Source of the DNA: a virus | IMG/VR virus record: IMGVR_UViG_3300031801_000029 | Location: 1 to 21,560 of that record | Strand: one strand, 5' to 3' | Length of the DNA: 21,560 nucleotides | In this document: piece after piece, positions 1,927 to 21,560 of the stretch | How the letters are laid out: each line of letters starts with the position of its first letter | Numbering within the stretch: the first letter of the stretch is position 1 | Notes under the pieces: generated by a model | Seen by the model: only the letters and a program-made list of their open reading frames with translations | Databases searched by the model: none | Told to the model about the DNA's origin: nothing | Made by a program: the position numbers and the translations under genes

Positions 1927-2316
1927 ATGGCAACGAGGTATAAAGGGTTTTCCACCCACAATAAAAACTTTTCTAATTCATTTACTTTAAGTGGATTTGA
2001 CCTTGCGAAGCAAGATTTAGTAAATCACTTTAACATACGCAAGGGTGAAAAGTTACAAAATCCAGAATTTGGATCAATAATTTGGGATTCATTATATGAA
2101 CCATTAACAGAGGTTATAGTTGAAGAAATTGAAGAAGATATAAAAACAATTATAGCATATGATCCAAGAATTGAAGCAGAAAGTATACTAGTTGAGCAAC
2201 ATGAGAGCGGTTTATTAATTGAAATGCAATTATTATATATTCCAGACCAAATAATGGAACATTTATTATTTCAATTTGATACTGAAACCATTCAAACAAC
2301 ACTGAGTACATTATAA
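1927..2316 (+). CDS. gp25: Baseplate wedge subunit / sheath initiator, gp25-like
   Basis: 129 residues, close to T4 gp25 (132 aa), of the gp25/TssE family. Gp25 sits in the inner baseplate next to gp6 and gp53 and seeds polymerisation of the contractile sheath. The family pattern is clear: a basic N terminus, FNIRKGEKLQNPEFGS at residues 35-50 (the KGEK is the counterpart of the usual GER turn), an IIWDSLYEPLT stretch, an acidic amphipathic helix (about 62-76), and DPRI at 79-82 (the conserved EPR site), followed by two strands. The start is ATG 1927; conservation of the N-terminal residues in this family supports it although no Shine-Dalgarno is present. A late-promoter-like box ends 6 bases upstream. 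The stop overlaps the gp6 ATG (TAATG), suggesting coupled translation. Very confident. Confidence 0.95.
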   Translation: MATRYKGFSTHNKNFSNSFTLSGFDLAKQDLVNHFNIRKGEKLQNPEFGSIIWDSLYEPLTEVIVEEIEEDIKTIIAYDPRIEAESILVEQHESGLLIEMQLLYIPDQIMEHLLFQFDTETIQTTLSTL

Positions 2317-5300
2317 TGGCGTTAACTACTAGACAAAACACAATATATGAAGCAGAAGATTGGCAAGTATTATACCAATCTTTTATTAATGCGGACTTTG
2401 AAAGTTACGATTTTGAAACATTACGTAAATCAATGATTGATTATTTGCAATTATATTATCCTGAAGACTTTAATGATTTTATTGAAAGTTCAGAATTTAT
2501 AGCATTAATTGATCTTATTGCGTACATAGGACAAAACATTAGTTATAGAGTAGATTTAAATGCTAGAGAAAATTTCTTATCTACTGCAGAGCGTAGAGAA
2601 AGTATATTGCGGCTTGCTCGTTTAGTAAGTTATAATACAAAACGTAATGTAAATGCAAGTGGATTTTTAAAATTACAAAGTATGGTTACATCAGAGGACG
2701 TATATGATTCCAATGGTGCAAATTTAGCAAATACAGTTATTACTTGGAACGACATTAATAATATAGATTATGCTGAACAATTTAATTTAATATTAAATGC
2801 CTCAATGGTAACAACACAAAAAGTTGGTACACCAAACTTGTCAGGTACTATTAATGGTGTTAAAACAGAACAATACCAAATTAATGTACCAGCGGGCATT
2901 ATTCCAATATATGCTTTTACGTCATCAGTTGATGCAATAACAATGGATTTTGAAGCAGTTAGTGCAACGTTTAAAGACAAAACATATATTTACGAAGAAC
3001 CACCCAGCAATGTAGCTCCTTTCAATATTCTATATAAAAATGATGGCAGGGGAAATGGCAGTAATAACACAGGCTTTTTTATATACATTAAACAAGGCAG
3101 TTTACAAAGTGCTGATTTTACAATTGATGATTCTATTCCGAACAGGCAAATATTTATTAATACAAACAACATTTCTAATAGTGATGTTTGGTTATATGAA
3201 TTAGATACTAATAATGATTTATCTTCATTATGGACACAAGTTCCTGCTACTACTGGCAATAATATTATATACAACAGCTTAAACAAAGATACTAGAACAC
3301 TATACAGTGTTAATTCTCGTGAAAGTGACCAAGTAGCATATATTTTTGGTGATGGTATTTTCTCTGATATTCCACGTGGCAATTTTAGAGGATTTTTTAG
3401 GCAAAGTAATGGTCTAACTTATACTATTAAAACAGATGACATGCGAGGAATTACTCTTATTGTTAATTATATTAATAGAAATAATATTCAGCATTCATTG
3501 ACAATGACATATAATTTAGAAACAGAAATTTCAAATGCAGCTGCTAGGGAAACAATAGAAGATATTAGAATAAAAGCACCGCAAAGTTACTATTCACAAA
3601 ACCGCATGGTAAATGGTGAAGATTATAATATATTTCCTATTACTGCAACAAGTGATATTATTAAAGCAAAAGCAACAAATAGGACATCTAGTGGTATTTC
3701 TAGATATTTAGATATTGTAGATCCAACTTCAAAATATTCCTCAACAAATATATTTGGTGAAGATGGTATTTTATTTAGAGAATTTTTCTCTAACAATTTT
3801 GATTTTGAATTTAATAATGAAATGGATATATTGCGAGCGATACGTGATAAAATAGAACCAGTTTTACGTGATGTAGGTAGTAAGCAATATTATTATGACA
3901 AATATGATAGAATAACAGTTGGTGCAACAATTTGGGAGCAATCAACAACAAGCACTAACTCAAGTACAGGATATTTTAAAAATAGTTTAGGAGCATCAGT
4001 TCCTATAGGAGCATCTTCGCCAGCATCAGATAATAGAAAGTATATGGCCGCAAATGCCCTAGTAAAATTTAACGCACCAAGTGGCAAGTATTTTAAATCA
4101 GATGGTAGTTTACATACAGGTAGTGTAGGTGCCCCAGGCACATTTGCAGACATTTGGTCTTTAATTAAAATTGTTACAGGTGATGGACACAATAGTGGCG
4201 CAGGTAATTTATCTGACGGCTCAGGTCCAGTAACATTAAGTGAGTTAATTGGCGATGGTGCAGAAGTTGCTGAGATAATTCCTCAGTTTGTAACAGATTT
4301 ACCATCAGCAATGGAAACAGCAATGCTAACTAAAATCTTTAATCATGAAGAATTTGGTTTGCGTTTTGATGCTGATACAAGAGCGTGGGTTATTATATTA
4401 GCAGAAAACATAGATACAACTTCAGAATTTTCGTTTGCTTATGAAGGTGATACAACTAGTTTGAAGAAGGATGCTAGTTGGATGATTTGGCTAAAAAGTA
4501 ATGGTACAGCATATACTACAACATATAGGGGATTAAAATATAGTTTTGAAAGTAATTTAGAAACTAGATTTTATTTTGATAGTTCTATTAAAATTTATAA
4601 TTCACGCACAGGTAAAGTTATAACAGATCAAATTAATATTTTAAAAATAAACAGTCAACCAGATGTTAATACTGCAATGGATAGAGATCATATTTGGCAA
4701 ATTTATGGTTTAGATACGGAATTTTCTGGACGCACTAATTCACGTAGAGTGTTAATAACATTTTTGGACAGTGATGCTGATGGCATACCTGACAATCCAG
4801 ATCAGTTTACCAGTGTAGTTGATCCAACAGTTAATCCCACAATCAAATATGTATTTTTTGAGAAATTTACTGAGTCTAGTGGTGCAGAGCAATTCCAATT
4901 AACTACTAAAACAGTTAATGTTTCATATACTACGGCCGCATCCTTGCCAAGTGATACAAGCATATTTGCTGATAAAGAAGTTATTTACTTGACTACAGAC
5001 AAAACATTTAGAGTTTATAATAAGACTGACAGCACATTATTAGTTAGTACAGATTATAAAGTATATGTAGGACGTAAAACACTCAATTTTAATTATAAAC
5101 ATAACTCGCCATCGGATAGGAGAATTAATCCAGGCTTGAGTAATATTATTGATATGTATGTGTTAACACGAGCATATAGTAATTCTTATACTACATACAT
5201 TCAAGATAATACTGGTGTGATAATTGAGCCCACTACAAATACCACTAGTGATTTAACCACACAATTTAGTGATTTATTAAATTACAAAATGTTAAGTGAT

Positions 5301-5714
5301 GAAATAATTTTTCACCCAGTGAAATATAAACCATTATTTGGTAGTAGAGCAAGTTCAACATTGCAAGCATCATTTAAAATTGTAAAAAATACACAAACCA
5401 CTGTAACGGATACTGAAATTAAAACACAAGCAATTGAGGCAATTAACGATTATTTTAATATTAATAATTGGGATTTTGGTGAAACATTTTATTTTACTGA
5501 ACTTGCCGCGTATATACATAATCAATTGACCCCATATATTGCTACTGTTTTAATTGTACCAAAAGGAACTAATCAAAACTTTGGTAGTTTATTTGAAATA
5601 AAAAGTAATAATAATGAAATTTTTATTAGTGATTCAAAAGTAGAAGACATTGAAATTATTGATGCTATTACTGCATCTAAAATTAGAGCAAGCGGCACAA
5701 TACTTACTAGTTAG
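2316..5714 (+). CDS. gp6: Baseplate wedge protein, gp6-like, enlarged
   Basis: 1132 residues, against 660 in T4 gp6. Gp6 dimers form the inner ring of the baseplate wedges with gp25, gp53 and gp7, and belong to the baseplate J-like superfamily. The N-terminal 120 residues are typical: a helical acidic start, then FIALIDLIAYIGQNISYRVD (61-80) and an Arg-rich helix followed by SYNTKRNVNASG (105-116). A J-like FGDG loop lies at 344-347, followed by PRG. The C terminus (about 1025-1132) has the conserved TELAAYIHNQLTPYI helix and a mixed strand/helix ending. The extra length lies mainly in the middle, about residues 540-960. It includes a DxDxDGxxDxxD calcium-loop-like motif, DSDADGIPDNPD, at 818-829. 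The ATG overlaps the gp25 stop by one base and has no clear Shine-Dalgarno of its own, so translation is probably coupled. The identity is firm; the role of the expansion is not known. Confidence 0.92.
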   Translation: MALTTRQNTIYEAEDWQVLYQSFINADFESYDFETLRKSMIDYLQLYYPEDFNDFIESSEFIALIDLIAYIGQNISYRVDLNARENFLSTAERRESILRLARLVSYNTKRNVNASGFLKLQSMVTSEDVYDSNGANLANTVITWNDINNIDYAEQFNLILNASMVTTQKVGTPNLSGTINGVKTEQYQINVPAGIIPIYAFTSSVDAITMDFEAVSATFKDKTYIYEEPPSNVAPFNILYKNDGRGNGSNNTGFFIYIKQGSLQSADFTIDDSIPNRQIFINTNNISNSDVWLYELDTNNDLSSLWTQVPATTGNNIIYNSLNKDTRTLYSVNSRESDQVAYIFGDGIFSDIPRGNFRGFFRQSNGLTYTIKTDDMRGITLIVNYINRNNIQHSLTMTYNLETEISNAAARETIEDIRIKAPQSYYSQNRMVNGEDYNIFPITATSDIIKAKATNRTSSGISRYLDIVDPTSKYSSTNIFGEDGILFREFFSNNFDFEFNNEMDILRAIRDKIEPVLRDVGSKQYYYDKYDRITVGATIWEQSTTSTNSSTGYFKNSLGASVPIGASSPASDNRKYMAANALVKFNAPSGKYFKSDGSLHTGSVGAPGTFADIWSLIKIVTGDGHNSGAGNLSDGSGPVTLSELIGDGAEVAEIIPQFVTDLPSAMETAMLTKIFNHEEFGLRFDADTRAWVIILAENIDTTSEFSFAYEGDTTSLKKDASWMIWLKSNGTAYTTTYRGLKYSFESNLETRFYFDSSIKIYNSRTGKVITDQINILKINSQPDVNTAMDRDHIWQIYGLDTEFSGRTNSRRVLITFLDSDADGIPDNPDQFTSVVDPTVNPTIKYVFFEKFTESSGAEQFQLTTKTVNVSYTTAASLPSDTSIFADKEVIYLTTDKTFRVYNKTDSTLLVSTDYKVYVGRKTLNFNYKHNSPSDRRINPGLSNIIDMYVLTRAYSNSYTTYIQDNTGVIIEPTTNTTSDLTTQFSDLLNYKMLSDEIIFHPVKYKPLFGSRASSTLQASFKIVKNTQTTVTDTEIKTQAIEAINDYFNINNWDFGETFYFTELAAYIHNQLTPYIATVLIVPKGTNQNFGSLFEIKSNNNEIFISDSKVEDIEIIDAITASKIRASGTILTS

Positions 5715-5722: not shown

Positions 5723-8700
5723 ATGGCCATAAGAAAAACTGTAAATCTATTACCACAACAGTTTCAAACTGATGTTAATAAGAAATTTTTAAATGCTACC
5801 TTAGATCAACTAGCATCTCCTGGTACATTAGATGTAATAAATGGTTTTATTGGGCGGCGTGATGTAGATAATTTTAAAACAACAGATCCATATATTGTTG
5901 AAACAAATTCAGATAGATTAAATTATCAACTTGAACCAGCAGTTACTATTAAAAAAGAATTATCAGAAACAAAATATGATTTTGCTTCAACATATATTGA
6001 TATAGTTAATTCAATTCAGGCGGCCGGTGCAAGTAATTATAATCACGATAAATTATTCAGTAATGAATATTATGTATGGTCACCACCAATTGATTATGAT
6101 AAAATTATTAACTATACAAAATATTATTGGCTACAACCTGGTCCTGATAGAATAGATCTTGTTGACCCTATCACTATTAGTGACATTGTAGGTAAGAAAA
6201 CTTACACATATACATCTGTTGATGGTACTAAATCAATTGTTTTCTCAACAGGACTTAAAGTGCGATTTACTGGCACAGTTACGCCGTCAACACAAGCAAA
6301 TATTGATTACATTGTTGCGGACGTAGGCGCCAGTATTAGACTAATTCCATATACTGACTTGCTTACACCAGAGTCTAGTATATACACATTAAGTAAAGAT
6401 TACTTAACTATTAAACGTGGTGCTATAGACGGCAACCAATGGAGTAATAATAACCGTTGGTTTCATGAAGATATTATTACAGCAACAGCAACATTTAATG
6501 AAACTACTGCTGTATATGATTCGGCGGTGCGAGCAAAACGTCCTATTATAGAATTTGATAATGATATTAAATTATATGATTATGGTACAAAACAATTAAC
6601 AACTATTGATTTAATAGATAATATTTTTACTGATGTTTTTTCAGAACTTGAAGGTAAACCAGCTATAGAATTTGATAGTTATATTGATGGTACAGCATTG
6701 GCTGCGGGACAAAAAGTTGTCTTTACTTCCGATACTGATCCATTAGTTAATGGTTTTATATATGATATACAAATAGTTTCAATTGGTGGCAAAAATGTAG
6801 TACATTTAGAAAAAAGTACTACAATAGCAGATCCTGCAACTAATAATACTATTATTGTTAAATCAGGTGTTGCCAATAAAGGAACACAATGGTATTATAA
6901 AAATGATAAGTGGAACAAAGGACAAGTAAAAACTGGATTAAACCAAGCACCAACATTTGATATATTTAACAAAAATGGTGATAATTTCTCAACATACTCA
7001 AGTAGCACATTTGCTGGTTCAAATATTTTTAGTTATGCAGTAAACAGTGCCGGTACTGCTGACACAGAATTGGGATTTGCATTATCATATAAAAACTTCA
7101 CTAATATTGGTGACATTATTTTTAATGACAATCTAATTAGAGATAGTTTTTCATATATATCTGATATTGTTAATGATACGAGTACATCAGTCAGATTAGC
7201 TACAGGATTCTTGCATAAAAATACCAGTATTAACACTTATTCTACATTTTCTAATTGGGAAAAAGCTCCAATTGAAAGTAGGCAATTATTACAACAAACT
7301 ATTGTTGTAGGCACAGAATTAAAACAATTTAAAGTTACTACTGTTCCAAAGACTGAAACTATAGTAAAGAATTTAATTGTTACAGTAAATGGTAAACTTA
7401 AAGAAAAAGGTGCAGGCACTACTACAACAAAAGATTATTTTATTGTAACAGATAGTGGTTTCCAATATGTAAACTTTACAAGTGAATTAATTGTTGGTGA
7501 TATTTTAGTTATTAAAGTACATAGTGACACTGGTATACAAAAATTAACTGGTGGTGAATTTTATACAATACCAACTAATTTAAGTAACAATCCATTAAAT
7601 GATATGTCTATTACTACTAATTTTACATTGGGGCAAGTAAGAGATCATATTGGTAGTTGTGTTGAAAACAGCCTAGACTTCTCTGGTAAAACATTAGGAA
7701 ATAATAATATTCGAGATATTGGTAATATTGCACCAATTGGCACTAGAATTATACAAAACACTAGTAGTTTATTAAAAGCTGGTTATATGCTGTCTAATAA
7801 AAATTATGATTTTTTCCAAGCACTAGATTATGCTGGAAATGAATATAATAGATTTAAAAATCAATTCTTAGATCAAGCAAAAAGTATGGTACAATTAACT
7901 GATACCTCAGCATTTGTTGATAGTATCTTACAAACAATGTTCTCAGGTAAAAGTAGCACAATGCCATATTATGATAGTGACATGGTTCCGTTTTCAACCG
8001 ATACAACCACACTAACATATTCTGTATTTGATATTGACAACGGCCAATTTGAACTCAACAAAACATATAGTGACATAGCACCTAGTCAAACAGCAGTACT
8101 AGTTTATAAAAACAATGTAATGTTATTAAAAGACCAAGACTACACAGTCTCTACAACAACGCCTTTCATAACTTTAACAAGTAATATAACTCTTGTAGAA
8201 AATGATATTATTAAAATTATTGAGTATATTAATACTGGTGGTAATTTTATACCACCAACACCAACTAAATTAGGATTGTATCCTAAATATGTACCAAGTA
8301 AGTATTCTGATGACACTTATACAACAACTATTAATGTTATACAAGGACATGATGGATCTCTTACTCCGGCATATAATGATTATAGGGATGATTTATTATT
8401 AGAATTAGAAAAAAGAATTTATAATAATATAAAAATAGCATATAATCCTAATTTAATTAAACTAACGGACACTTTTGCAGCTCGTTATAGAACAACAACA
8501 TTTACAAGAGAAGAAGTCAACAACATTTTAGGAATGCAATTTTCAAAATGGACTAATACGTTTGATGTTGACTATGCTAAAAACACAACCTATGATGGTA
8601 CTAATACTTTTACTTGGAATTACAGTAAAGTAAAAGATAGATTTGATGGAGCAGACATTGTTCCTGGATATTGGCGCGGCATATACAAATATTTTTATGA

Positions 8701-11700
8701 TACTGACAGGCCACATACCCATCCATGGGAAATGCTTGGTTTTAGTATTAAACCATTGTGGTGGAAAGCAACTTATGGCGCCGCTCCATATACAAAAGAT
8801 AATCTTGTACTATGGGCGGATCTAGAAGCAGGAAAAATTGTAAGTGGTGATAGAGCAGGAACATATCCTGAATATATAAGAACAGGAATGGTTGCCAATT
8901 ATATTCCAACAGATGCCGTGGGTGATTTAAAAAGTCCTACGGATATAGGAATATTAAGTGTAATTGATACAGATACAGCTGCTAATTTTGTAACAGGTGA
9001 CGAAGGTCCTGCAGAAACAGCGTGGCGTAGATCAAGTTATTATCCATTTGCTGTGCAACTGCTATTAGCATTAACAAAGCCTGCAAAGTATTTTGAACTG
9101 ATGTTTGATGTTAGTAAATTATACACCAATACATTAGGACACTATGTAGATAAATTGTCACTTTTACCAATTGTACCTAATTCAGTTAAAACAAACTCAT
9201 ATATTAATACAGACTCTTCTGTTGATTATACATTAGGTTATAATAATTGGATAGTAGATTATTCAAAGTATTTAGGTATTAGCACCATAACTTTTTATAA
9301 ACAACTAAATGCTTTAAATCTTAATTTAGCATATAAGATGTCGGGTTTTTCTGATAAAAGTAAATTAAAAATTATATTAGAGCAAATCTCCCCATCAAAG
9401 TCTACAACAGATATTTTTATACCACAAGAAGATTATAACTTCCATTTAATGGAAAGTAGTCCTATTCAAAGTATTAATTATAGTGGAATAATAATTGAAA
9501 GAACTCTTAATGGCTATAAGCTAAATGGTTATACAACTAAACAACCACATTTTAAAATTCTACCTAGTATTATTACATCTCCTAAAAAAACAACTATATC
9601 AGTTGGTGGACTAGAACAACCATTTACTCAATACATTACTGGACAATCATATAGCGCAGGCAATGTAATAAAAATCGTTAACGATTTTTATATGGTAACA
9701 ACTGGTTTTACTGCAACAGACACAGATTCTGATCGAGGCAATTATTATAAATTAGAAGCGTTGCCCAAAGTTGGTGGAGTATCAGTAATTAGATATGATG
9801 AATTTGAAAAAGAACATGTTGTTATACCGTATGGTAAAGAATATACTTCAATTCAAGAAGTATTTGATTTTATAATTGGTTATGGTAGGTATTTAGAAAG
9901 TTTCGGATTTGTATTTGAAAATATTACAAGTGGATTTGATTTAATAGAAAATTGGACTAGCACAGCAACAGAGTTTCTATTTTGGACTATGAGTAATTTT
10001 AATGTTGGATCATTAATTACATTAAGTGCTGGCGGCAATAAAATTAAATTAAACTTAACTACATCTCAAATTGAAACACTATCAAATAATATGGTGGCAT
10101 CTAGTGTATTAAATCAAAATAAAGAACGCATTGAAATTCGTGATTTATTTTATAGCCGCATAGATAATATTTTTGAAATTAGCGCAAGTCCAGACATAGA
10201 TGGAATATATGCCGCACAATTAAATCCAATCCAAACAGAACACTTGTTAATTATTGAAAATGAAACAGTTTTCAAAGATATTATTTGGTCACAAATGACA
10301 GGTAGTCGTCAAAATAGAATTAAATTAGTTGGTTATAAAACTGAATTGTGGGATGGAACACAACAATTGCCAGGTTATGTATTATTAGATGATTCTGTAG
10401 ATGAGTGGGACGTGAATATAAGTTATAAAATTGGTGATATAATTAAATTTAAAAGTAAATTTTATACTAGTAAAAAATCACATACCCCAAATGATTTATT
10501 AGAAACAGGCAAATTTGATTTCAGTAAATGGAAACAATTAGATAAAGTAAATAGCGGATTACTTCATAATCTAGACGCTAAAGCAGATGACTTTAGAGGT
10601 TTTTATGAGATTGAAGAAGATGGCAGAATAATTGGTACACAAACATTGGCATCTAATTTAATTGGTTTTCAAAAGAGAAAATATTTAGAAAACTTACAAA
10701 TTGATGAAACATCTCAGAAAAAATTCTATCAAGGATTTATTAAAGAGAAAGGCACATCATCAATGGTTAATAAACTATTGAGAGCAAAATTACCAGCAAT
10801 TGATAGTACCCTTAATTTATATGAAGAATGGGCATTTAGAGTTGGAGAGTACGGATCCGTAGCAAGTTCTCAAGTAATTGAATTTAAATTAGAAGAAGAT
10901 AAATTTACAGACAACCCAGAAGTAATAGAAATTATTAATTCCGCAGAACAATATAAAGATACACATATTACTCATCGGCCCAGTGATTTATATCAGAAAC
11001 CTTTAGAGCCAATACTGTTTGATAAAGATGTTTTTAAAAAGTTAACAGAAGATATTAGTACAAGAGATTATTTACCTGATGCAGGCTATGCTCGTTTAGA
11101 TGATGTTGAACATAAAATATTAAGTTTAGCTCAGTGGGTACCTAATGCTGTTATTATAATAGAAGAAGATATCAATATTGATACTCAATTTATAGGTAAA
11201 AAATCTTATACTACAACTAGTGGTACTATTGTTACATTAACAAATGGTACAGTTGTAAAATTTACTGGAACTAATACTAGACCAACTTCATATTTAACAG
11301 GAGAATATATTGTAACTGGTGTAGATGATGCTATACAATTAGCGTCAAAAAGCAAATATTTAAATGCATTTAATATAGGTGATAAAGTTTGGGTAGCAAA
11401 CTCTAATACATATCCACCAACGTTTGCAGAAAACTCAAATGATTGGAATATATACAGAATAGGTAGCACACGCAATACACCAATTAGTATTGCGAGTTCA
11501 ACAGCAAACGAAATTACAGTCGGATTTAAAAATTCAATAAGCACAATATTGACTGATGATTATATTATTTTACGTAGATTTATTAATGCAATTGATTCTA
11601 CTATAGATTATAGCGGAATATATAAAGTAAAAACTAACTTATCCAATACTGGGGTTAATTCTTTAATATTATATGCTAATACTCTACAGACATATAATAT

Positions 11701-14700
11701 AGATTTTTCAAAATTAACTTCAGCAAATGAAACCACATATGGTGAATTTTTATCTCTAATTGGTGCTAGATATGCTACTACTGCTAATTTACTTAATAGA
11801 ACAGAACCAACATTTGGTTGGGAAGATGGAGATTATGCTTGGATTGATAATCACAACAGCACTAATAAATGGATCGTGTTGGAAAAGAAAAATCCTTATG
11901 CATTAGGAAAAGAAATATTTCCTAATACAAAGACAACTAATACAGGATTTGGACAAGGTGTCGCAGGCAATAGTGACCTGTCGACAATACTAGTTGGTTC
12001 TACTTACGATACTACATCTGCAGGTAACATTGAACAATGGACACGTGATGTTGCAACAGTATTTGATGTTGCAAGTATATTTGTAAGTGATAACACATCA
12101 CAATCAGCAGGTACGTTAAGCACTTCAGGATATTTACTAACAGTAGAAAGTGACGGATTACCGCAGCCAGCAACTTTTGGAACATTTCCAAATGACAAGA
12201 ATCCTAATAGAGTGCTACCAAGAAGTCATAAACATACATTTAACTTGCGTGTAGGAACAAATACAACAGCAAGTCCACAAGTAGCAACACCATTAGGTGG
12301 TACTGCTATAGCGGCAAATGGTATAATAATTGCCAACCCGTCGGCAACAGCAACACTACCAAATGATAATGGTCCAGCAAAAGGTGTAGCTCCAACAGGG
12401 TTTGAATGGAATGCTGTAGCAAATTCAATAGCAGTAGGTATGGATGACTCACACGGGCATCCACAAGTAGATAATCAGTATCATTATCACAGTGGTAAGT
12501 TTTTAAGTCAATGGGACTATCACATATATCAAGCAAACTCATATTATCAAGACACTAATTATAGTGGTGATCATTGGAGACATACTAACGGCCATTCTAA
12601 AATATTAGGCTATGCATATGATGGTTATCCAATTTATGGCCCATATAGTTACTCAACTGCTGAAGATTCAACAACCACGCTAGTGCGTATGACATCATCA
12701 TACACTATTTGGGGAGACCCGGTATCTGGCCGTGGTTATACATATACAGAATATCCTGCAGAAACATTCATACAAGATTACCAATTTGTTGTTGGTGCAG
12801 GAACATTAGATAAGCATAATGGTCGTTATTGTGTAACGCCAGATTATCCGAACGGAACTTATGCTTACTTCTTAACATTAAAGACTGACGGCACGCCTGT
12901 GTATCCTTACATTATTGGTCCAACTTATAAAGAGTTACCAGTATTAGAAACAGACACAGTACCAGCAGATCCTAGTGGTAGTAATGCACAAACAGTTGCA
13001 TTAACACCAGGAGACTTTACATATAGCAACACCATCGTAGATGGTAGTAAATTGTATAACAGCGGTTGGGCAGGCTGGCAATTTGATACTGCTATAGATG
13101 ATGATTACATTGTAACAAGTGCGGCAAATAGTAATAGCGGGCAAGGTTATGCTATAATCCTTAAAGTAAAAACAGACAAGTCATATGAACCATTTGATAT
13201 AATGCGCTCACCAAGTCCTACAACAAATGGATTATTTGGTTATGATGTTGCTGTAAGTAAAAACGGAACATACGTATTAGTAGGCGCACCAGGCGAACTT
13301 AAAGCATATATGTATAAACTGCAAACTGGCATTACTGCTAATAATGAATATTTTAATGGCACAGGATCAACAACTGTTTTTACTTTTTCTACAACAACAT
13401 ATAGTGATACAGATGAAATTACTGTACTTGTAGATAATCAAATTAAAATTGAAGGTTTGGATTATACATTATCTGCAACACAAGTTACATTTACTGTTTC
13501 TCCTCCACTTGGTACTAATAGTATTATATTGCGTAAGGGAAATTATTATAATGCTATTAAAACATTTACTGGAGCAGTAGGATCAGACTTTGGACGTAGT
13601 GTTGCTATAAGTGACGATGGAACTATTGCTTTTATTGGCAAGCCAAATAAAGCAGATGGTGCTAGTGTAAATGCTGGTGCTTTAGAAATTTGGGGTAAAA
13701 CTCCTACAGACACATATTACAAAATACAAGATATTAAAAGTAATGTAACAGATGCTAATGAGAACTTTGGTAAAGAAATAGAGTGTGGTATTGATGGACA
13801 TATAATTGCAGTTGGATCGCCAGGTGCTGATTTTACTGTACTATTAGAGACAACTATATACGCTACAAATTCTGGTGAAGTAGAATGTTGGATAGATGAT
13901 GCTAAACACAATGGCACAATAACTGGTACTGTTGCTAATCCAACAGTGAGCATTGGTGACAAGATTGTAATTAATGGTACTGAAGTAACTTTTACCGGTA
14001 CTGATGTAGATTCAGTTGTGAGTGATATAACTGCTAGAGCAATTACATTTATAACAGCAGTAAAAACAAGTGACAATAAATTAAAAATTAGTAGCACAAA
14101 AACAGACGCTAATGCTAAACTTACAGTAAGACCCGGTACAACTAATGGTGGTGTAGTGTTTACAGCACTTGGTTTAACACTATACACATATAAATCAGCA
14201 TTGCGACATCCAGATGGCCCACAAAATGCATACTATGGAGAACATATTAGATTTAATAATACTGCTACTAATGTTATAATTGGTAGTCCAACAAGTACAA
14301 GCGAAGTAGCAATGACAATAGATAGTGGTGCTACACTATTTGATCAAGGCAATACTATTATTAGTGATGTAAAATTTGAATCAGGATCAGCATTAATTTA
14401 TGACATTAATACTGATTTAACTTACTCGTTAATACAACGAGTAGATTGGAGCGGCCGTAAAAAACTTGATAAGTTTGGTACTGGCCTTGCAATGATTGGA
14501 AATACAGCACTCATTGGTGCTCCAGGTGATGATTATTTTGTTGAAGAAACATTAATTGGTACTGGATTAACAGCCGCTTATACAATTACAGGACAATTTA
14601 CTACTGCTAATTTAGAAATTACTATGAATGGTAGAGTAATGTTACAGTCAGAATATTCTAGTAATAATGCATCACCAAGTATAGTAACATTTACTGAAAC

Positions 14701-17700
14701 GCCTGTTGCAACTTCTATTATTGTGTTTAAGAAATATACACAAAATACTGGTGCTGTAATGGAGGCAACTAATACAGGAAATAAAGTTTCTTGGAATTCA
14801 AAACGCACACAAAGTGATAAAGTAGATATTAATACAATTGATAAAGTTATAACGTATGATAAATCAACAAATACATTTATTGATTATATTGACTATATTG
14901 ATCCAATTAAAGGTAAAATTCCTGGAGTCGCAGATGAAGAAATTAGTTTTAAAACATTATATGATCCAGCAATATACAATTTAGCAACAGAAACTAATGT
15001 TGCTACTAATTTAAATGATCATTGGGGTCCTAATGAAGTAGGAATTTTATGGTGGGATTTAACTAACACAAAATATATTGACTATGAACAAGGCGAATTA
15101 GAATATAGACGTCTTAATTGGGGTAAATTGTTTCCAAGTACGCAAATTAATATATATGAATGGGTTGAAAGTGATACATTACCATCATCATATGTAATAT
15201 TGGGCGGTGACGGTACACCAAAATTTGCTAGTGATACAGCTTATGTAGAATATCAAAAGTATAATACATCTACAAGTACATTAGAACCAATTTATTATTA
15301 TTGGGTTAAAAATAAAACGTCTGTACCTAATGTTTCAACTACTTATTTAGATGCTAGTGGGCAAATTAAATACGCCGCATACGGTAAAGAAATTGAACTT
15401 AAAAGTTTTATCCCAGCAGCTACACGAAAATTGCCAGGGCAAACAATTGCTACTATATTAAAAGATCCCTCGGCGTATGGATTAAAGTATATTGGTGTTG
15501 CGGCCCAAAATGCTTTTGTTGGTCATAATTTACAAACAAATTTAACTGATGACAACATTATTTTAAGTATTAACTATGACACTATTAAGAATGATATACC
15601 ATTACATACAGAGTGGCAATTAGTACAAAAAGACAATGCGTTGTCTAAACCAAATCCTTATTTAATTACTAAATTAGGAGATAGTTTAGCAGGAAAAGAC
15701 GCTAATGATAATGAAGTACCAGATTCTTCAGTTCATGTAGCATCAAGATATGGTGTAATGGAGTATCCGCGACAAAGTATGTTTGTTGATAGATTGGGCG
15801 CCGTTAAAGTACTTGTACAATTTTGTAATACTGTATTTGCAAAATATAAAACGGCAATAGATTATAAGTTAACAACTATATCATCTGCTGAATTAGCACC
15901 AACATATGGTTATAATGAAACTGTTGCAAGTAAAGCAGAACTAAATTATATTAATGCATTGACTATTTCCGATGGACATAAAGTAATAGTTACAACAGAC
16001 GAAACTCAAGGAAATTATTGGACAACATATATTTGGGAAACCGCAACACAAAGATGGAATTTAGAAAAGAAACAAAAATATGATACAACAAAATATTGGG
16101 ATTATATAGATTGGTATGCTACTGGTTACAGTGCCAATACAATTATTGATTATACCGTTGCAATAGAAAATGATGTTGATAAATTAGATACTAAACTTAA
16201 TGATATAGTTAAAGTATTAAATGATGGGCAAAGTAAATGGATATTGTATAAAAATACAAGTGGTAGTACTGTTGATACATATGAAGTTGTTGGACAAGAA
16301 AACGCAACAATTAAGTTTAAAACAACATTATATACTACAACTACTCCATTAGTAGAATTAAGATATATTATTGACGCATTAAACACACAATTATTTGTAG
16401 GAAATATAGAAGTAGAATTTAATAAATTGTGGTTTGAACTAATTCATTATGTGTTATTTGATCAATCATTACAAGTAGACTGGGTATTTAAAACAAGTTT
16501 TATAACTATTAGCCAAACTGTAAGAAAATTAGCCGAACTAGTTAATTACAGCTATGATGTACAAGATAGTATTAAAGATTATATTAATGAAGCAAAACCA
16601 TACAGAACTAATATTAGAGAATATGTATACCGTTATAATTATACTGAAAATCCTCTAATAGGAAACAGTGATTTTGACTTGCCGGGGTATTATGATACAA
16701 CAGACAAATTATTTAGATCACTCAATGTATACGAAGCAGACGACGACGCAAAGATGCTTACAGCACCTTGGATAGATTGGTACAATCATTATACAAAGAA
16801 AGTAGATAATATTATTGTATTAACTGTTGGTAGTGGTTATGCTACTACAACATCATCAACATATGATGCAGTAGGTTATGACACGACTGGTTATGACTAT
16901 AGTGCTATTACAGCATCACCGCCAAATATAATAATTGAAAGCGGAGCACAATGGGAACTAGGTTATACTTATGCTACGGATAAAGTACCTGGTGCAACGG
17001 GCGCAGAAGCAACTCTTATTGTACCAGAACATAGTCCTGATACATTATGGTATTATAGCAGTACTATAAAAGATATGGGTTGGAAAATTAGAATACAACC
17101 TAAACTAGCAACAAATGAAAGCAAAACATTTGCAGTAACTGTAGTATTAGATAACACAGGCAGTCCAGATTTTTATATAGATGGCATAGAGCGTCCTAAC
17201 CTTATCTTATATAGAGGTTCAACATATACATTTACACATACAGATGCAAGTAACTTAAACTATGGTTTCTTTAGATTCTCAGCACTAGAAGATGGTACAC
17301 ATAGAGACGGTACTGGTGCTATTGCTGTACCTGTAATGGGATTACCAAGTCTTGAAACAGTAGCATCTATCACTGTAACAAATGGTGGTACAGGTTATGT
17401 AACTACTCCAAAAGTAACTATTACAGGTGGTAGTGGTTCAGGTGCTACGGCATATGCTAATGTAGAAAACTATAAAGTTAGAGATATTAAAGAAACAATG
17501 AAGTTTGATCGTGTAGATGAACCATCACACGTTACAACTATTGCCGTAACTGCTGGAGGTAGTGGATATACTTCAAATCCAACTGTAGTAATTACAAATG
17601 CCGCAGGAGACACAACAGGCGTTGGTGCCACAGCGGTTGCTAGTAGAATAGATACAAATCCACTCTCGGGCACTTATGGAAAAAACACCGATGCAGTTAC

Positions 17701-20308
17701 AGTTGTTAGTGTTACAATTAAAGGCACAGGATATACTGCCGCACCAACAATCAGTTTTACTGGTGGCGGTGGTAGTAGTGCCGCGGCAACAGCAACAGTT
17801 TCCTACTCATCCTATAATAAGTTAGAAACAGCACAAGAAAGTGCAAGCAAAAAGCATAGTGATCGTTTAACATTATATTATGCTGGTGGGCAAACTGGTA
17901 CAAATAGTGGTAAAAACTGGAAGAGCGAAACAGTAACTGATATACCTACATATGAAGCAGTTATATCAAGTTCAGGTATAGAATTTAAGGCTAATAAAGT
18001 ACTTGGTCCAACATTTGATATGGAGCCAGGTTATGATAGAGCAGCTTATTCCAAGTCAGCATTTGATGATTATGCTGTTAGTCCAGAAGGCACAAAACTT
18101 ATTGCTAGTGTCGATACAGATTTGGGCGGTGGTGATTTTAGTACAAGTGGAGGTATAGATCCAGCAAATGTTTCAGTTGATGGTGATGGATTTGTAACAG
18201 AATATACATCTCATGCGCCAGAAGAGCAAGTACCTGGTCGTGTATTTGATACATTAGACATTAAAGTATACGAAATGCCATCACCACGAGACTCTGGTGT
18301 TACTATTAGAAAATATACGTTTACTGGTGATGGTTCTACTACAACTTATGATTTCTCTGCATTATCAGCCTTACCTACAAATCTTGAAGGTATTGAAGTA
18401 TATGGAGGTAATTCAACATATGGATGGACGTTAAAAAAATTAACTACTGATTATACCGTCAATATGAGAAATAATGATATAACAATGGTTGTTCCGGCGG
18501 CCGCCGGCCAATTACTTCATTTTATACTTATTGAGACAGGTGGTGATACTGTTACATCAACTAACCAAGATTTTTATGCAGATGGTACACAAACACAATT
18601 TGTTGTAAATGTTCCATACGAATACGCACAATATCTATATATTACAGTAAACGGATTTGAAAATAATCCAACTTGGACAGCAGCTAGTTATTATAAAAAA
18701 ACAAGAATAACTTTTACATCAGCTCCAACAAATGGCGCTCGTGTAAGGGTACATACATTTAATAAGCCAGGCCTGACAATTACTAATGCAGGCAGTGGTT
18801 ATACAACTGCTCCAGCAGTAACATTTAGTGGTGGTGGTGGCACTAACGCGGCCGCGACAGCAGTTATTAATGCTGAGGGCAAAGTAAGTGGATTAATTGT
18901 AACAAACGCAGGCAGTGGATATACATCAACACCAACTGTTGCAATTGCAGGTACAGCAACCGCAACCGCTACAGTAACATCTGGCAAAATAGAAGCAATT
19001 AGACCATTTGTTAAAGTTGAAAATGAAGAACAAACAATTACAGTTCCAGGTAGTCCAACATGGCCTGCTAGTTATACATATAATTATGGACAAGATAACT
19101 TCTTTGAATTAGGTCCTGATGCCGCGAGAGTTTTTGTATATTTTAAAAATGAAAGATTAAGGCCACCAGATACAGAATATTATACTGGAAATGGATCTAC
19201 AACAGCATTTAATAGTCCAACTAATCCAACCATAGTATATGGTTCAGTAACTGATGCTGACGTTCAAGTACACGTTGATGGTGTATTAAAAACACTTACA
19301 ACACATTATACATTTACTGGTACGCCCGCTCGTGCTCAAATAACATTTACTAGTGGTAATATCCCAGCATCAGGTACAGATGTGGCAATTACAGTTAGAA
19401 ATGGTCAATATTGGATTGTAAATGATTATCAAGTAATACTTGAAAATGGCAGCGGAGTATCTACAACTGCTGGTGTAGTAGCAACTGGCGATAGGTTATT
19501 TGTACAATCATTTGCTAACCAAAGACATAGTAAAGGAAAAACTATAGTAATAAAAGGTAGTTCAACTGCTACAACAACAATTCCTGAAAGATTTGATTCA
19601 ACAATTTATGACACTATAGGATATTCTGGAGATGTAAGTATATCAATAGCAACACCAATATATGATATATCAGCATTGGGTGCTAATACAAATTACTTGT
19701 GGGTATGGTTAAATGGTGTGCCAAAAATAGCAAACCATGATTATACTGTTTCTGGAACCAATTTAATAATGACCCCAGATTCTGGTAGTATATTAGCATC
19801 AGATTATATTATAGTATCAGGAATGCGACAAGCAGAGCAACGACGTGGTTTAGCATTTAGAATTTGGAAAAATATGTTTGATGATGTAGAATACTATAGA
19901 ATTGCTACAGCAAATACAACAACGTTATCTACAGCATTAGTATTAACTGACTTAGAAATTAATGTAACAGATGCAACTAAATTGCTAACACCAGTGCCAA
20001 GTACAGGAACGCCAGGAGTAATATTCATTAACGGTGAAAGAATAGAATACTATGAAATAGATGGCAATAAACTAAAAAGATTGCGTCGTGGAACATGGGG
20101 AACAGGTGCTATTGCAACACATGCTATTTTAAGTGAGGTAGTAGATGGTAGTAAACAACAATTAATACCAGGTGATGATGTTCATACTAAAGTTTGGTAT
20201 GATCAAGGAGGATCAACTGCTACTAATGAATTAGGTTTAGGTATGGCAACATCTAAACAAGTAATATTCCTTAAAGAGGCACCGCTGTCAACTCCAAAGG
20301 TAATATAA
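5723..20308 (+). CDS. Giant modular virion protein (4861 aa) in the gene 7 position
   Basis: One open frame of 4861 codons, about 530 kDa, Thr/Ser/Asn/Asp/Tyr-rich with almost no Cys and no signal peptide or membrane segment. In T4 the gene after 6 is gene 7 (wedge protein, 1032 aa), so the N-terminal part may play that role; this is inference from position. Modules seen, in order: N-terminal region 1-140 (NLLPQQFQ, PIDYDKIINYTKYYWL); a strand module 156-207 with a second copy near 1820-1876; beta-sandwich modules at 533-604 and 766-838; a Trp/Tyr-rich block 918-1040 (PGYWRGIYKYF, HPWEMLGF, KPLWW); two CBM-like segments (about 1301-1350, 1563-1606); a YHYH domain 2159-2406; an FG-GAP propeller 2448-2940 with insertions; a Trp-rich block around 3100 (HWGPNEVGILWWDL); Gly-Ser-Gly-Tyr repeats 3694-4420; more beta-sandwiches 4193-4703; and a C-terminal domain 4732-4810. 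Such content fits an extended baseplate-attached protein contacting the host surface. Coding is certain; function is inferred. Confidence 0.85.
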   Translation: MAIRKTVNLLPQQFQTDVNKKFLNATLDQLASPGTLDVINGFIGRRDVDNFKTTDPYIVETNSDRLNYQLEPAVTIKKELSETKYDFASTYIDIVNSIQAAGASNYNHDKLFSNEYYVWSPPIDYDKIINYTKYYWLQPGPDRIDLVDPITISDIVGKKTYTYTSVDGTKSIVFSTGLKVRFTGTVTPSTQANIDYIVADVGASIRLIPYTDLLTPESSIYTLSKDYLTIKRGAIDGNQWSNNNRWFHEDIITATATFNETTAVYDSAVRAKRPIIEFDNDIKLYDYGTKQLTTIDLIDNIFTDVFSELEGKPAIEFDSYIDGTALAAGQKVVFTSDTDPLVNGFIYDIQIVSIGGKNVVHLEKSTTIADPATNNTIIVKSGVANKGTQWYYKNDKWNKGQVKTGLNQAPTFDIFNKNGDNFSTYSSSTFAGSNIFSYAVNSAGTADTELGFALSYKNFTNIGDIIFNDNLIRDSFSYISDIVNDTSTSVRLATGFLHKNTSINTYSTFSNWEKAPIESRQLLQQTIVVGTELKQFKVTTVPKTETIVKNLIVTVNGKLKEKGAGTTTTKDYFIVTDSGFQYVNFTSELIVGDILVIKVHSDTGIQKLTGGEFYTIPTNLSNNPLNDMSITTNFTLGQVRDHIGSCVENSLDFSGKTLGNNNIRDIGNIAPIGTRIIQNTSSLLKAGYMLSNKNYDFFQALDYAGNEYNRFKNQFLDQAKSMVQLTDTSAFVDSILQTMFSGKSSTMPYYDSDMVPFSTDTTTLTYSVFDIDNGQFELNKTYSDIAPSQTAVLVYKNNVMLLKDQDYTVSTTTPFITLTSNITLVENDIIKIIEYINTGGNFIPPTPTKLGLYPKYVPSKYSDDTYTTTINVIQGHDGSLTPAYNDYRDDLLLELEKRIYNNIKIAYNPNLIKLTDTFAARYRTTTFTREEVNNILGMQFSKWTNTFDVDYAKNTTYDGTNTFTWNYSKVKDRFDGADIVPGYWRGIYKYFYDTDRPHTHPWEMLGFSIKPLWWKATYGAAPYTKDNLVLWADLEAGKIVSGDRAGTYPEYIRTGMVANYIPTDAVGDLKSPTDIGILSVIDTDTAANFVTGDEGPAETAWRRSSYYPFAVQLLLALTKPAKYFELMFDVSKLYTNTLGHYVDKLSLLPIVPNSVKTNSYINTDSSVDYTLGYNNWIVDYSKYLGISTITFYKQLNALNLNLAYKMSGFSDKSKLKIILEQISPSKSTTDIFIPQEDYNFHLMESSPIQSINYSGIIIERTLNGYKLNGYTTKQPHFKILPSIITSPKKTTISVGGLEQPFTQYITGQSYSAGNVIKIVNDFYMVTTGFTATDTDSDRGNYYKLEALPKVGGVSVIRYDEFEKEHVVIPYGKEYTSIQEVFDFIIGYGRYLESFGFVFENITSGFDLIENWTSTATEFLFWTMSNFNVGSLITLSAGGNKIKLNLTTSQIETLSNNMVASSVLNQNKERIEIRDLFYSRIDNIFEISASPDIDGIYAAQLNPIQTEHLLIIENETVFKDIIWSQMTGSRQNRIKLVGYKTELWDGTQQLPGYVLLDDSVDEWDVNISYKIGDIIKFKSKFYTSKKSHTPNDLLETGKFDFSKWKQLDKVNSGLLHNLDAKADDFRGFYEIEEDGRIIGTQTLASNLIGFQKRKYLENLQIDETSQKKFYQGFIKEKGTSSMVNKLLRAKLPAIDSTLNLYEEWAFRVGEYGSVASSQVIEFKLEEDKFTDNPEVIEIINSAEQYKDTHITHRPSDLYQKPLEPILFDKDVFKKLTEDISTRDYLPDAGYARLDDVEHKILSLAQWVPNAVIIIEEDINIDTQFIGKKSYTTTSGTIVTLTNGTVVKFTGTNTRPTSYLTGEYIVTGVDDAIQLASKSKYLNAFNIGDKVWVANSNTYPPTFAENSNDWNIYRIGSTRNTPISIASSTANEITVGFKNSISTILTDDYIILRRFINAIDSTIDYSGIYKVKTNLSNTGVNSLILYANTLQTYNIDFSKLTSANETTYGEFLSLIGARYATTANLLNRTEPTFGWEDGDYAWIDNHNSTNKWIVLEKKNPYALGKEIFPNTKTTNTGFGQGVAGNSDLSTILVGSTYDTTSAGNIEQWTRDVATVFDVASIFVSDNTSQSAGTLSTSGYLLTVESDGLPQPATFGTFPNDKNPNRVLPRSHKHTFNLRVGTNTTASPQVATPLGGTAIAANGIIIANPSATATLPNDNGPAKGVAPTGFEWNAVANSIAVGMDDSHGHPQVDNQYHYHSGKFLSQWDYHIYQANSYYQDTNYSGDHWRHTNGHSKILGYAYDGYPIYGPYSYSTAEDSTTTLVRMTSSYTIWGDPVSGRGYTYTEYPAETFIQDYQFVVGAGTLDKHNGRYCVTPDYPNGTYAYFLTLKTDGTPVYPYIIGPTYKELPVLETDTVPADPSGSNAQTVALTPGDFTYSNTIVDGSKLYNSGWAGWQFDTAIDDDYIVTSAANSNSGQGYAIILKVKTDKSYEPFDIMRSPSPTTNGLFGYDVAVSKNGTYVLVGAPGELKAYMYKLQTGITANNEYFNGTGSTTVFTFSTTTYSDTDEITVLVDNQIKIEGLDYTLSATQVTFTVSPPLGTNSIILRKGNYYNAIKTFTGAVGSDFGRSVAISDDGTIAFIGKPNKADGASVNAGALEIWGKTPTDTYYKIQDIKSNVTDANENFGKEIECGIDGHIIAVGSPGADFTVLLETTIYATNSGEVECWIDDAKHNGTITGTVANPTVSIGDKIVINGTEVTFTGTDVDSVVSDITARAITFITAVKTSDNKLKISSTKTDANAKLTVRPGTTNGGVVFTALGLTLYTYKSALRHPDGPQNAYYGEHIRFNNTATNVIIGSPTSTSEVAMTIDSGATLFDQGNTIISDVKFESGSALIYDINTDLTYSLIQRVDWSGRKKLDKFGTGLAMIGNTALIGAPGDDYFVEETLIGTGLTAAYTITGQFTTANLEITMNGRVMLQSEYSSNNASPSIVTFTETPVATSIIVFKKYTQNTGAVMEATNTGNKVSWNSKRTQSDKVDINTIDKVITYDKSTNTFIDYIDYIDPIKGKIPGVADEEISFKTLYDPAIYNLATETNVATNLNDHWGPNEVGILWWDLTNTKYIDYEQGELEYRRLNWGKLFPSTQINIYEWVESDTLPSSYVILGGDGTPKFASDTAYVEYQKYNTSTSTLEPIYYYWVKNKTSVPNVSTTYLDASGQIKYAAYGKEIELKSFIPAATRKLPGQTIATILKDPSAYGLKYIGVAAQNAFVGHNLQTNLTDDNIILSINYDTIKNDIPLHTEWQLVQKDNALSKPNPYLITKLGDSLAGKDANDNEVPDSSVHVASRYGVMEYPRQSMFVDRLGAVKVLVQFCNTVFAKYKTAIDYKLTTISSAELAPTYGYNETVASKAELNYINALTISDGHKVIVTTDETQGNYWTTYIWETATQRWNLEKKQKYDTTKYWDYIDWYATGYSANTIIDYTVAIENDVDKLDTKLNDIVKVLNDGQSKWILYKNTSGSTVDTYEVVGQENATIKFKTTLYTTTTPLVELRYIIDALNTQLFVGNIEVEFNKLWFELIHYVLFDQSLQVDWVFKTSFITISQTVRKLAELVNYSYDVQDSIKDYINEAKPYRTNIREYVYRYNYTENPLIGNSDFDLPGYYDTTDKLFRSLNVYEADDDAKMLTAPWIDWYNHYTKKVDNIIVLTVGSGYATTTSSTYDAVGYDTTGYDYSAITASPPNIIIESGAQWELGYTYATDKVPGATGAEATLIVPEHSPDTLWYYSSTIKDMGWKIRIQPKLATNESKTFAVTVVLDNTGSPDFYIDGIERPNLILYRGSTYTFTHTDASNLNYGFFRFSALEDGTHRDGTGAIAVPVMGLPSLETVASITVTNGGTGYVTTPKVTITGGSGSGATAYANVENYKVRDIKETMKFDRVDEPSHVTTIAVTAGGSGYTSNPTVVITNAAGDTTGVGATAVASRIDTNPLSGTYGKNTDAVTVVSVTIKGTGYTAAPTISFTGGGGSSAAATATVSYSSYNKLETAQESASKKHSDRLTLYYAGGQTGTNSGKNWKSETVTDIPTYEAVISSSGIEFKANKVLGPTFDMEPGYDRAAYSKSAFDDYAVSPEGTKLIASVDTDLGGGDFSTSGGIDPANVSVDGDGFVTEYTSHAPEEQVPGRVFDTLDIKVYEMPSPRDSGVTIRKYTFTGDGSTTTYDFSALSALPTNLEGIEVYGGNSTYGWTLKKLTTDYTVNMRNNDITMVVPAAAGQLLHFILIETGGDTVTSTNQDFYADGTQTQFVVNVPYEYAQYLYITVNGFENNPTWTAASYYKKTRITFTSAPTNGARVRVHTFNKPGLTITNAGSGYTTAPAVTFSGGGGTNAAATAVINAEGKVSGLIVTNAGSGYTSTPTVAIAGTATATATVTSGKIEAIRPFVKVENEEQTITVPGSPTWPASYTYNYGQDNFFELGPDAARVFVYFKNERLRPPDTEYYTGNGSTTAFNSPTNPTIVYGSVTDADVQVHVDGVLKTLTTHYTFTGTPARAQITFTSGNIPASGTDVAITVRNGQYWIVNDYQVILENGSGVSTTAGVVATGDRLFVQSFANQRHSKGKTIVIKGSSTATTTIPERFDSTIYDTIGYSGDVSISIATPIYDISALGANTNYLWVWLNGVPKIANHDYTVSGTNLIMTPDSGSILASDYIIVSGMRQAEQRRGLAFRIWKNMFDDVEYYRIATANTTTLSTALVLTDLEINVTDATKLLTPVPSTGTPGVIFINGERIEYYEIDGNKLKRLRRGTWGTGAIATHAILSEVVDGSKQQLIPGDDVHTKVWYDQGGSTATNELGLGMATSKQVIFLKEAPLSTPKVI
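7319..8241 (+). other. Region with two N-terminal copies of the 'VNG...DYTV' beta-sandwich module
   Basis: Residues about 533-604 and 766-838 of the giant protein share the layout [I/V]xVxVNG/KNN, a short loop, DY(T/F)xV, a strand, then (V/E)xDIxxIxx. Examples are LIVTVNGKLKEKG with GDILVIKV, and AVLVYKNNVMLLKDQDYTV with NDIIKII. The pattern resembles beta domains in phage tail fibres and returns six more times further along the same protein (see 13339-14740 and 18299-19830). Confidence 0.55.
12197..12940 (+). other. YHYH domain within the giant protein
   Basis: Residues about 2159-2406 match the YHYH family: the YHYH tetrad at residues 2253-2256 (bases 12479-12490), preceded by DDSHGHPQVDNQ, followed by LGYAYDGYPIYGPY (about 2295-2308) and NGRYCVTPDYPNGTYAYF. 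The domain occurs in secreted bacterial proteins and in large marine-phage virion proteins; its biochemical role is not established. The His/Asp-rich motif suggests metal binding (inference). The domain appears complete. Confidence 0.85.
13064..14543 (+). other. FG-GAP-like beta-propeller with inserted modules in the giant protein
   Basis: Six blade-like repeats follow the pattern (F/Y)Gxx(V/I)xxxxxxxxxGxP: about residues 2448-2483 (GWQFDTAIDDDYIVTSA), 2503-2533 (FGYDVAVSKNGTYVLVGAPG), 2622-2659 (FGRSVAISDDGTIAFIGKP), 2680-2706 (FGKEIECGIDGHIIAVGSPG), 2837-2860 (YGEHIRFNNTATNVIIGSP) and 2915-2940 (FGTGLAMIGNTALIGAPG). This is the integrin-type FG-GAP propeller signature. Between blades 2 and 3 sits a tail-fibre-type beta module (2540-2610), and between blades 4 and 5 a separate strand-rich insert of about 130 residues. 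The fold is predicted from motifs only. Confidence 0.7.
16803..18980 (+). repeat. Gly-Ser-Gly-Tyr repeats in the giant protein
   Basis: Six copies of a roughly 35-residue unit, (I/V)xVTxGGxGYTxxPxVxI(T/S)GG followed by an Ala-rich stretch, begin near residues 3694 (degenerate), 3880, 3936, 3994, 4350 and 4392. The last two are also similar in DNA: GCAGGCAGTGG followed by T or A and then TATACA at 18787 and 18907, exactly 120 bases (40 codons) apart, suggesting a recent tandem duplication. A cupredoxin-like stretch (about 3803-3868: DFYIDGIERPNLILYRG, then TYTFTH) is embedded in the array. Confidence 0.75.
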
Positions 20309-21067: not shown

Positions 21068-21560
21068 GTGGCGTATACAGTTAATAAAACAAGTGGAGCC
21101 GTACTAACAGTTGTAGCTGATGGTACGCTTGACACAACAACGAATTTAACATTAATCGGTAAAAATTATGCCGGTTATGGTGAGGTTCAAAACGAAAATT
21201 TTGTAAAACTACTAGAAAACTTTGCTCACAGTTCCGCCCCTGGCTCACCATTGGCTGGCCAATTATGGTGGGACTCTACAAATGTAGCACTCAAAGTGTA
21301 TACCGGCTCTGCCTGGAAAGAGGCTGGCGGTATAACTTCAGCGGCAACAGCACCTTCCGGTGCTCAAGAAGGAGATGTCTGGTGGGACACCACTAACGAT
21401 CAATTAAAAGGATATGATGGTTCAACATGGATTATTATTGGACCAAGTTATGCAGGTGGAGTAATTAGTGGTGCAATAGTAGACACAATTACAGATAATG
21501 GATCAGTTGTACATACAGTAGTATTTTTATATGTTGCAAATACAAAAGTTGCAATTATTT
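21068..21560 (+). CDS. Fibre-like virion protein with WWD repeats (right-truncated)
   Basis: The frame opens at GTG 21068 and stays open to the right edge, giving 164 residues; the 3' end lies outside. It is preceded by a perfect TATAAATA box and AGGAG 9 bases upstream. The N terminus (YTVNKTSGAVLTV, then LTLIGKNYAGYGE and FVKLLENFA) is followed by two copies of a repeat with a 38-residue period: GQLWWDSTNVALKVYTGSAW from residue 64 and GDVWWDTTNDQLKGYDGSTW from residue 102. This layout is common in tail-fibre or fibre-associated proteins of marine T4-like phages, where the repeats continue toward the C terminus; I rely on memory of the family. No enzyme motif is visible. The stretch 21181-21420 is about 47% GC by hand count, well above the surrounding genes. 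It is probably a host-contact protein whose receptor-binding part lies beyond the window. Confidence 0.8.
   Translation, partial: MAYTVNKTSGAVLTVVADGTLDTTTNLTLIGKNYAGYGEVQNENFVKLLENFAHSSAPGSPLAGQLWWDSTNVALKVYTGSAWKEAGGITSAATAPSGAQEGDVWWDTTNDQLKGYDGSTWIIIGPSYAGGVISGAIVDTITDNGSVVHTVVFLYVANTKVAII

Follow-up and report, generated by a model that had tools for sequence, protein, structure and literature searches.

A giant structural-protein gene beside the gp6 wedge gene of a phage genome fragment: a conserved scaffold, a variable module site and a likely place in the jumbo-phage baseplate

The window analysed here is an entire IMG/VR record of 21,560 bases, evidently a fragment of a larger genome. 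By far its largest open reading frame lies downstream of genes resembling baseplate hub and wedge components, in the order gp5-like, gp25, gp6:

280 to 1884: gp5-like hub gene, with Phage_base_V and DUF2345 matches.
1927 to 2316, plus strand: gp25-like baseplate wedge gene (PF04965, E 1.4e-8).
2316 to 5714, plus strand: gp6-like baseplate wedge gene, 1,132 aa (phrog_10646, E 2e-301; phrog_219).
5723 to 20308, plus strand: giant virion-protein gene, 4,861 aa, ~536 kDa, PHROG 10938 family.

The gp6 of the window is long compared with the 660 aa of T4 gp6, and its relatives are likewise enlarged, mostly to 1,100-1,200 aa. Pfam found no lysozyme domain in the hub gene of the window; the hub proteins of RaK2 and CBB are annotated as tail lysozymes. 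A further gene starts at 21068 and is cut by the end of the record at 21560, with repeated GQLWWD/GDVWWD motifs and weak PHROG matches to tail-fibre and structural families.

The frame of the giant gene starts with an ATG preceded by AGGAAAAATT and placed 8 nt downstream of the gp6 stop, and it is read through 4,861 codons with no internal stop; the predicted protein has a pI of 4.9. Residues 1-1100 matched 29 loci in IMG/VR, the longest of the contigs having 322 kb, and the complete frame, of 4,851-4,949 codons, is stop-free in 12 other contigs. Relatives that were read out whole encode 4,847-4,936 aa, with 60-78% identity to the window protein. Comparison with contig L005 over the first 2,677 codons gave dN 0.08 and dS 0.43, and dN/dS against contig L061 was below 0.3 in all four parts compared. 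The giant gene is under purifying selection, substitutions being strongly biased towards synonymous changes in every compared part. An assembly fusion of several shorter genes, to which the size of the gene and a broken frame in one relative contig (L015) might point, is vanishingly improbable in view of the same unbroken frame in the 12 other contigs, of 44 complete frames found in relatives, 42 of which exceed 3,600 aa, and of the annotation of the gene as a single CDS in isolated phages. Since the stop-free frame recurs in independent contigs and substitutions are synonymous-biased, both chance and assembly fusion are excluded: the gene exists as one intact frame of 4,861 codons. The first-pass annotation had read the locus as a single unbroken giant gene directly after gp6, which is confirmed, and the assembly error that it named as the refuter of this reading is ruled out by the same 12 contigs. 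In L015 the giant gene is interrupted near codon 735 (about 10887) by a frameshift, either a sequencing error or a true break, and the remainder is open in another frame.

Separate pieces of the window protein matched PHROG 10938, 'virion structural protein' (E 1.5e-152, 1e-115 and 1.9e-84), a profile of 3,324 positions; the match covers the N-terminal part and the last of the four conserved blocks listed below. The category given to this family in PHROGs is head and packaging. By tblastn 57 phage records were matched, nearly all of them from jumbo phages above 280 kb, and a profile scan of IMG/VR found at least 587 related loci. In isolated jumbo phages of the RaK2, CBB, PA5oct and Atu_ph07 types the family members have 3,326-4,555 aa, and the individual lengths are 3,326 aa for RaK2 ORF070, 3,330 for Hallingskeid, 3,340 for CBB gp236, 3,771 for Vibrio phage 2.275.O, 3,807 for Salicola phage SCTP-2, 3,857 for PA5oct gp355, 4,449 for Atu_ph07 gp180 and 4,555 for Phosso. 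Environmental relatives with large inserts keep the frame open up to 6,292 and 6,444 codons. The family spans 3,326 to 6,444 codons, which puts the window gene inside its size range; the idea that 4,861 codons is an exceptional length was rejected, and the rarity implied earlier for such a gene was overstated. Judged by its sequence, the giant gene is an additional member of a known but little-described jumbo-phage family, one that counts among the largest phage structural proteins and is present in hundreds of environmental contigs under an annotation that says merely 'virion structural protein'.

Two homologues are present in virions by mass spectrometry. The PA5oct record notes ESI-MS/MS for gp355, and CBB_236 stands in the virion proteome table of the CBB paper (PMC5259590), with the values 21 and 7.72, read as peptides and % coverage. 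For none of the homologues was a biochemical or cryo-EM localisation found.

The linkage to gp6 is tight in most relatives. In each of the 103 contigs that could be tested, a gp6 profile located gp6 just upstream of the giant gene, at 31 nt or less in 101 of them, and gp6 precedes the giant gene in seven of the eight named phages whose maps were read. In SCTP-2, gp6 is found at 231-235 kb and the giant gene at 128-139 kb, ~92 kb apart, hence the linkage is not obligatory. Directly upstream of the SCTP-2 giant gene, in the place held by gp6 in other phages, lies gene 141 (L003:10633-19923), whose product of 3,096 aa combines WD40 propellers with a VWA domain. The slot after gp6 is filled by gp7 in T4, and by p084, of 3,048 aa and 5 nt after gp6, in cyanophage S-PM2 (L236:9073-18219); therefore a giant protein in this slot is not peculiar to the window.

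Alignment of the window protein with distant homologues, together with a conservation profile, brought out four conserved blocks, among which the following features are distributed:

5723 to 7972, plus strand: scaffold block 1, residues 1-750, aligning collinearly with each of the eight homologues from named jumbo phages.
7283 to 7534, plus strand: T7-fibre-N-like copy 1, residues 521-604, by our own HMM and fold match.
7973 to 8242, plus strand: T7-fibre-N-like copy 2, residues 751-840, by our own HMM and fold match.
8243 to 9592, plus strand: scaffold block 2, residues 841-1290, with a PWEMLGF motif.
9773 to 11122, plus strand: scaffold block 3, residues 1351-1800, containing FYQGFIKEKGT.
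10403 to 10486, plus strand: CBM5/12-like stretch, residues 1561-1588, inside block 3, in an insert missing from most distant homologues.
11126 to 14686, plus strand: variable insertion site between blocks 3 and 4, residues 1802-2988.
12272 to 12886, plus strand: YHYH domain (PF14240), residues 2184-2388, E 1.7e-38 (2.1e-38 in a repeat search).
12923 to 14722, plus strand: FG-GAP repeats (PF14312), residues ~2401-3000, E 8.6e-13, in three stretches.
Residues 2538-2610 and 2938-3010: T7-fibre-N-like copies 3 and 4, by our own HMM.
14690 to 16873, plus strand: scaffold block 4, residues 2990-3717, with a confident model in the relative L026.
16829 to 18982, plus strand: GSGYT-type beta repeats, residues ~3703-4010 and ~4355-4420, by pattern scan.
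18299 to 18769, plus strand: T7-fibre-N-like copies 5 and 6, residues 4193-4349, by our own HMM.
Residues 4481-4562 and 4634-4703: T7-fibre-N-like copies 7 and 8, by our own HMM.

AlphaFold2 modelled residues 1-1150 from 58 sequences with a pLDDT of 87.1 and a pTM of 0.82. Foldseek gave no overall match of this model in the PDB (best E 0.0098), and no PDB sequence was significantly matched in profile searches with residues 1-1150 or with block 4; the BFVD matches were to the family itself, among them Atu_ph07 and uncultured phages. VIA-align matched nothing beyond two small domains, at 522-613 and 757-837 (Z up to 8.9, over 64-77 residues); among its rows were T7-type fibre N-termini, the CBA120 protein TSP4 and chains from the baseplates of T4, P1 and phi812. 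A model of residues 1360-2557 of L026 had a pLDDT of 75.3 overall, good in block 4 and poor in block 3. Its Foldseek matches to the E1 FCCH barrel span only ~80 residues in the short insert and were put down to a common small beta-barrel; they imply no connection to ubiquitin.

The region separating block 3 from block 4 varies in length from 117 aa in CBB to 1,827 aa in L140 among more than 150 relatives, and its modules are exchanged. Among 48 inserts sampled for diversity, 38 carried FG-GAP repeats, five CBM5/12 and two YHYH, and RaK2-type members keep the scaffold with most of the insert missing. In the window the YHYH domain comes first and is followed by the FG-GAP repeats, a region that probably forms a beta-propeller. 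The CBM5/12-like stretch of block 3 reached 18.6-19.9 bits, under the Pfam curated cut-off of 26.2. Such an arrangement, in which a fixed scaffold bears one module site of high variability, apparently is undescribed; no published account of it, of the giant protein or of FG-GAP repeats in baseplates was found in a search that covered few subscription journals.

The C-terminal arm, of ~1,150 aa, is also variable and comprises the GSGYT repeats, a region with PHROG matches to repeat-bearing families, and four of the eight T7-fibre-N-like domains detected in the window protein. The HMM for these domains was seeded on copies picked by eye, so that the E-values of those copies carry no independent weight. 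External evidence is given by Pfam PF03906, which matched the C-terminal piece carrying such copies with E 1.1e-7, and by the fold of the two N-terminal copies. Copy 1 superimposes on 8i4m_M with Z 8.8 over 71 residues at 2.1 Å and on the T4 chain 5iv5_B with Z 7.2 over 77 residues at 2.5 Å; copy 2 superimposes on the N-terminal part of CBA120 TSP4 (7rfv) with Z 8.9 over 64 residues at 1.7 Å. The earlier description of the protein as a chain of recognisable extracellular-type modules is supported by the YHYH domain, the FG-GAP repeats, the T7-fibre-N-like domains and the GSGYT repeats, and the eight T7-fibre-N-like domains with the other beta-repeats suggest host-contact modules. A domain in common with the C-terminal arm occurs in two other genes, of 621 and 673 codons, near 20.3 kb and 255 kb in the contig of a 322-kb phage (G008).

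Taking into account that: (i) the position of the gene and its gp6 linkage point to a location in the baseplate, and (ii) the type of its modules would fit contact with the host, we propose, as a reasonably probable reading, that the giant protein is a structural component of the contractile-tail baseplate of a jumbo myophage, in which a scaffold on the gp6/gp25 wedge bears exchangeable modules directed outward. In the model, the four collinear blocks would constitute the conserved scaffold, most likely joining the gp6/gp25 wedge. The exchangeable modules, namely FG-GAP repeats, YHYH in the clade of the window and T7-fibre-N-like adaptor domains, would be accommodated at the permissive site that separates blocks 3 and 4 and in the variable C-terminal arm. 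These modules would reach outward, either to bind the host envelope or to dock separate fibres and receptor-binding proteins, or both. The head-and-packaging category in PHROGs and the separation of the SCTP-2 gene from gp6 speak against a baseplate reading. The insignificant gp7 comparisons and the lost YHYH motif of L063, both given below, also count against the model.

The locus had also been described as lying in the place of T4 gene 7 and as a nearly five-fold expansion of gp7. The first statement holds for the slot, which after gp25 and gp6 is identical, and is not supported for homology; the second found no backing. Comparisons were made with a gp7 profile built from T4 and six relatives, later from 30 sequences, and with gp6 profiles as positive control. 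The full-length profiles of T4 gp7 and the giant protein gave hhalign E 0.25-0.29, whereas the window gp6 was matched to T4 gp6 with E 1.5e-4. Profile-profile comparison block by block, which includes most of the N-terminal region for which a comparison with gp7 had been proposed, yielded no significant match to gp7 for any block (E 0.05-0.29), and larger profiles behaved likewise. When all blocks were run by hhalign against T4 gp7, T4 gp6 and S-PM2 p084 and p087, the sole match was that of half of the YHYH domain to p084; p087, a 'virulence associated' protein that we take to be VrlC, did not match the window protein.

Block 3 contains a motif, FYQGFIKEKGT (FYQGFIKEKGTSSMVNKLL), which is a weak look-alike, not significant, of the KGT motif of T4 gp7 and S-PM2 p084. 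This motif is the top-ranked alignment of block 3 to p084 (E 0.041) and is unaligned to T4 gp7, and p084 itself aligns to residues 701-754 of T4 gp7 with E 8e-4, so that a motif chain from block 3 through p084 to gp7 is a hint of kinship and no proof of it. Together with the shared slot and the resemblance of residues 522-602 to a T4 baseplate chain domain (5iv5_B), it favours a true, greatly enlarged gp7 orthologue, one that would supply the third chain of the (gp6)2-gp7 wedge core and have acquired outer domains. However, the profiles stay insignificant where the gp6 control succeeds, unrelated fibre domains match the fold as well as the T4 chain does, and the model of block 3 is poor. In the two VIA structure lists, whose comparison was effective for small domains, no row was recognised as T4 gp7, a result that is neutral as to orthology. 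We consider orthology with gp7 somewhat unlikely. As far as sequence comparison goes, the gp7 label would be only positional, and naming the gene gp7 by its position calls for caution; the role of gp7 may have been taken over by the giant protein. The table of T4 homologues in the CBB paper includes gp6, gp25 and gp53 among baseplate proteins (PMC5259590).

The giant protein might instead be a tail or whisker adhesin of the fibre type, a mere neighbour of the wedge genes that takes no part in building the wedge. Its T7-fibre-N-like, FG-GAP, YHYH and CBM-like modules are adhesin-like, the CBB tail bears whiskers along its length (PMC5259590), and the SCTP-2 gene is unlinked from gp6. This is an unlikely explanation for a protein with long conserved blocks, collinear across relatives and linked to gp6 in almost all of them, whose RaK2-type members keep the scaffold without most of the insert.

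It has also to be weighed whether the insert, chiefly its YHYH domain, breaches the host cell wall as a metal-dependent hydrolase, in which case the whole protein would be a very large carrier delivering a lytic enzyme. Where YHYH domains are fused to tail proteins, they have been predicted to bind Zn through a His/Asp site and to act as metal-dependent hydrolases (PMC7824862), and the window, L005 and L059-L062 have kept the YHYH motif intact. The activity is a prediction only, however, most sampled relatives have inserts without YHYH, and in L063 the motif is degenerate. Hence the activity cannot be essential in all members of the clade, and in L063 the domain would probably be structural or binding only. 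A carrier of this kind appears rather improbable.

Returning to a scaffold seated on the wedge, a more specific version of it can be put forward tentatively, as possible and no better than that: jumbo phages would use a wedge partner other than gp7, a giant scaffold offering a dedicated cassette site for the exchange of propellers, YHYH and carbohydrate-binding modules. If so, much of the adsorption apparatus would reside in one giant wedge chain and not in separate fibre genes. The map of four blocks and one site offers a basis for cryo-EM and for asking whether module exchange follows host range.

The nearest known systems are the PHROG 10938 homologues of PA5oct, Atu_ph07, Phosso, RaK2, CBB and 2.275.O, which have the four collinear blocks in common with the window protein at about 24-34% identity. 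In the isolates, as in the window, they lie directly after gp6, and they are in virions where tested; the window protein differs from them by its insert of ~1,190 aa with YHYH and FG-GAP repeats and by another C-terminal arm. T4 gp7, of 1,032 aa, likewise comes directly after gp25 and gp6, but it has no detectable sequence similarity and other modules, and the window protein is nearly five times longer. S-PM2 p084 is, like the window protein, a giant in the slot after gp6 and shares the C-terminal half of YHYH (hhalign E 5.7e-17), whereas the scaffold blocks are unmatched in p084, which carries the KGT-type motif of T4 gp7. The same YHYH module is thus seen in the same slot on two otherwise unrelated scaffolds. 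A protein in the gp7 slot may also be compared with VrlC, the apparent substitute of gp7 in pelagimyophages and cyanomyophages, which are reported to be without gp7 (PMC7029224). Finally, the N-terminal domain of the T7 gp17 fibre and the adaptor domain of CBA120 TSP4 share with the eight copies in the window a fold of ~70 residues; there it stands at the N-terminus of a separate fibre protein, whereas in the window protein the copies are internal modules of one giant chain.
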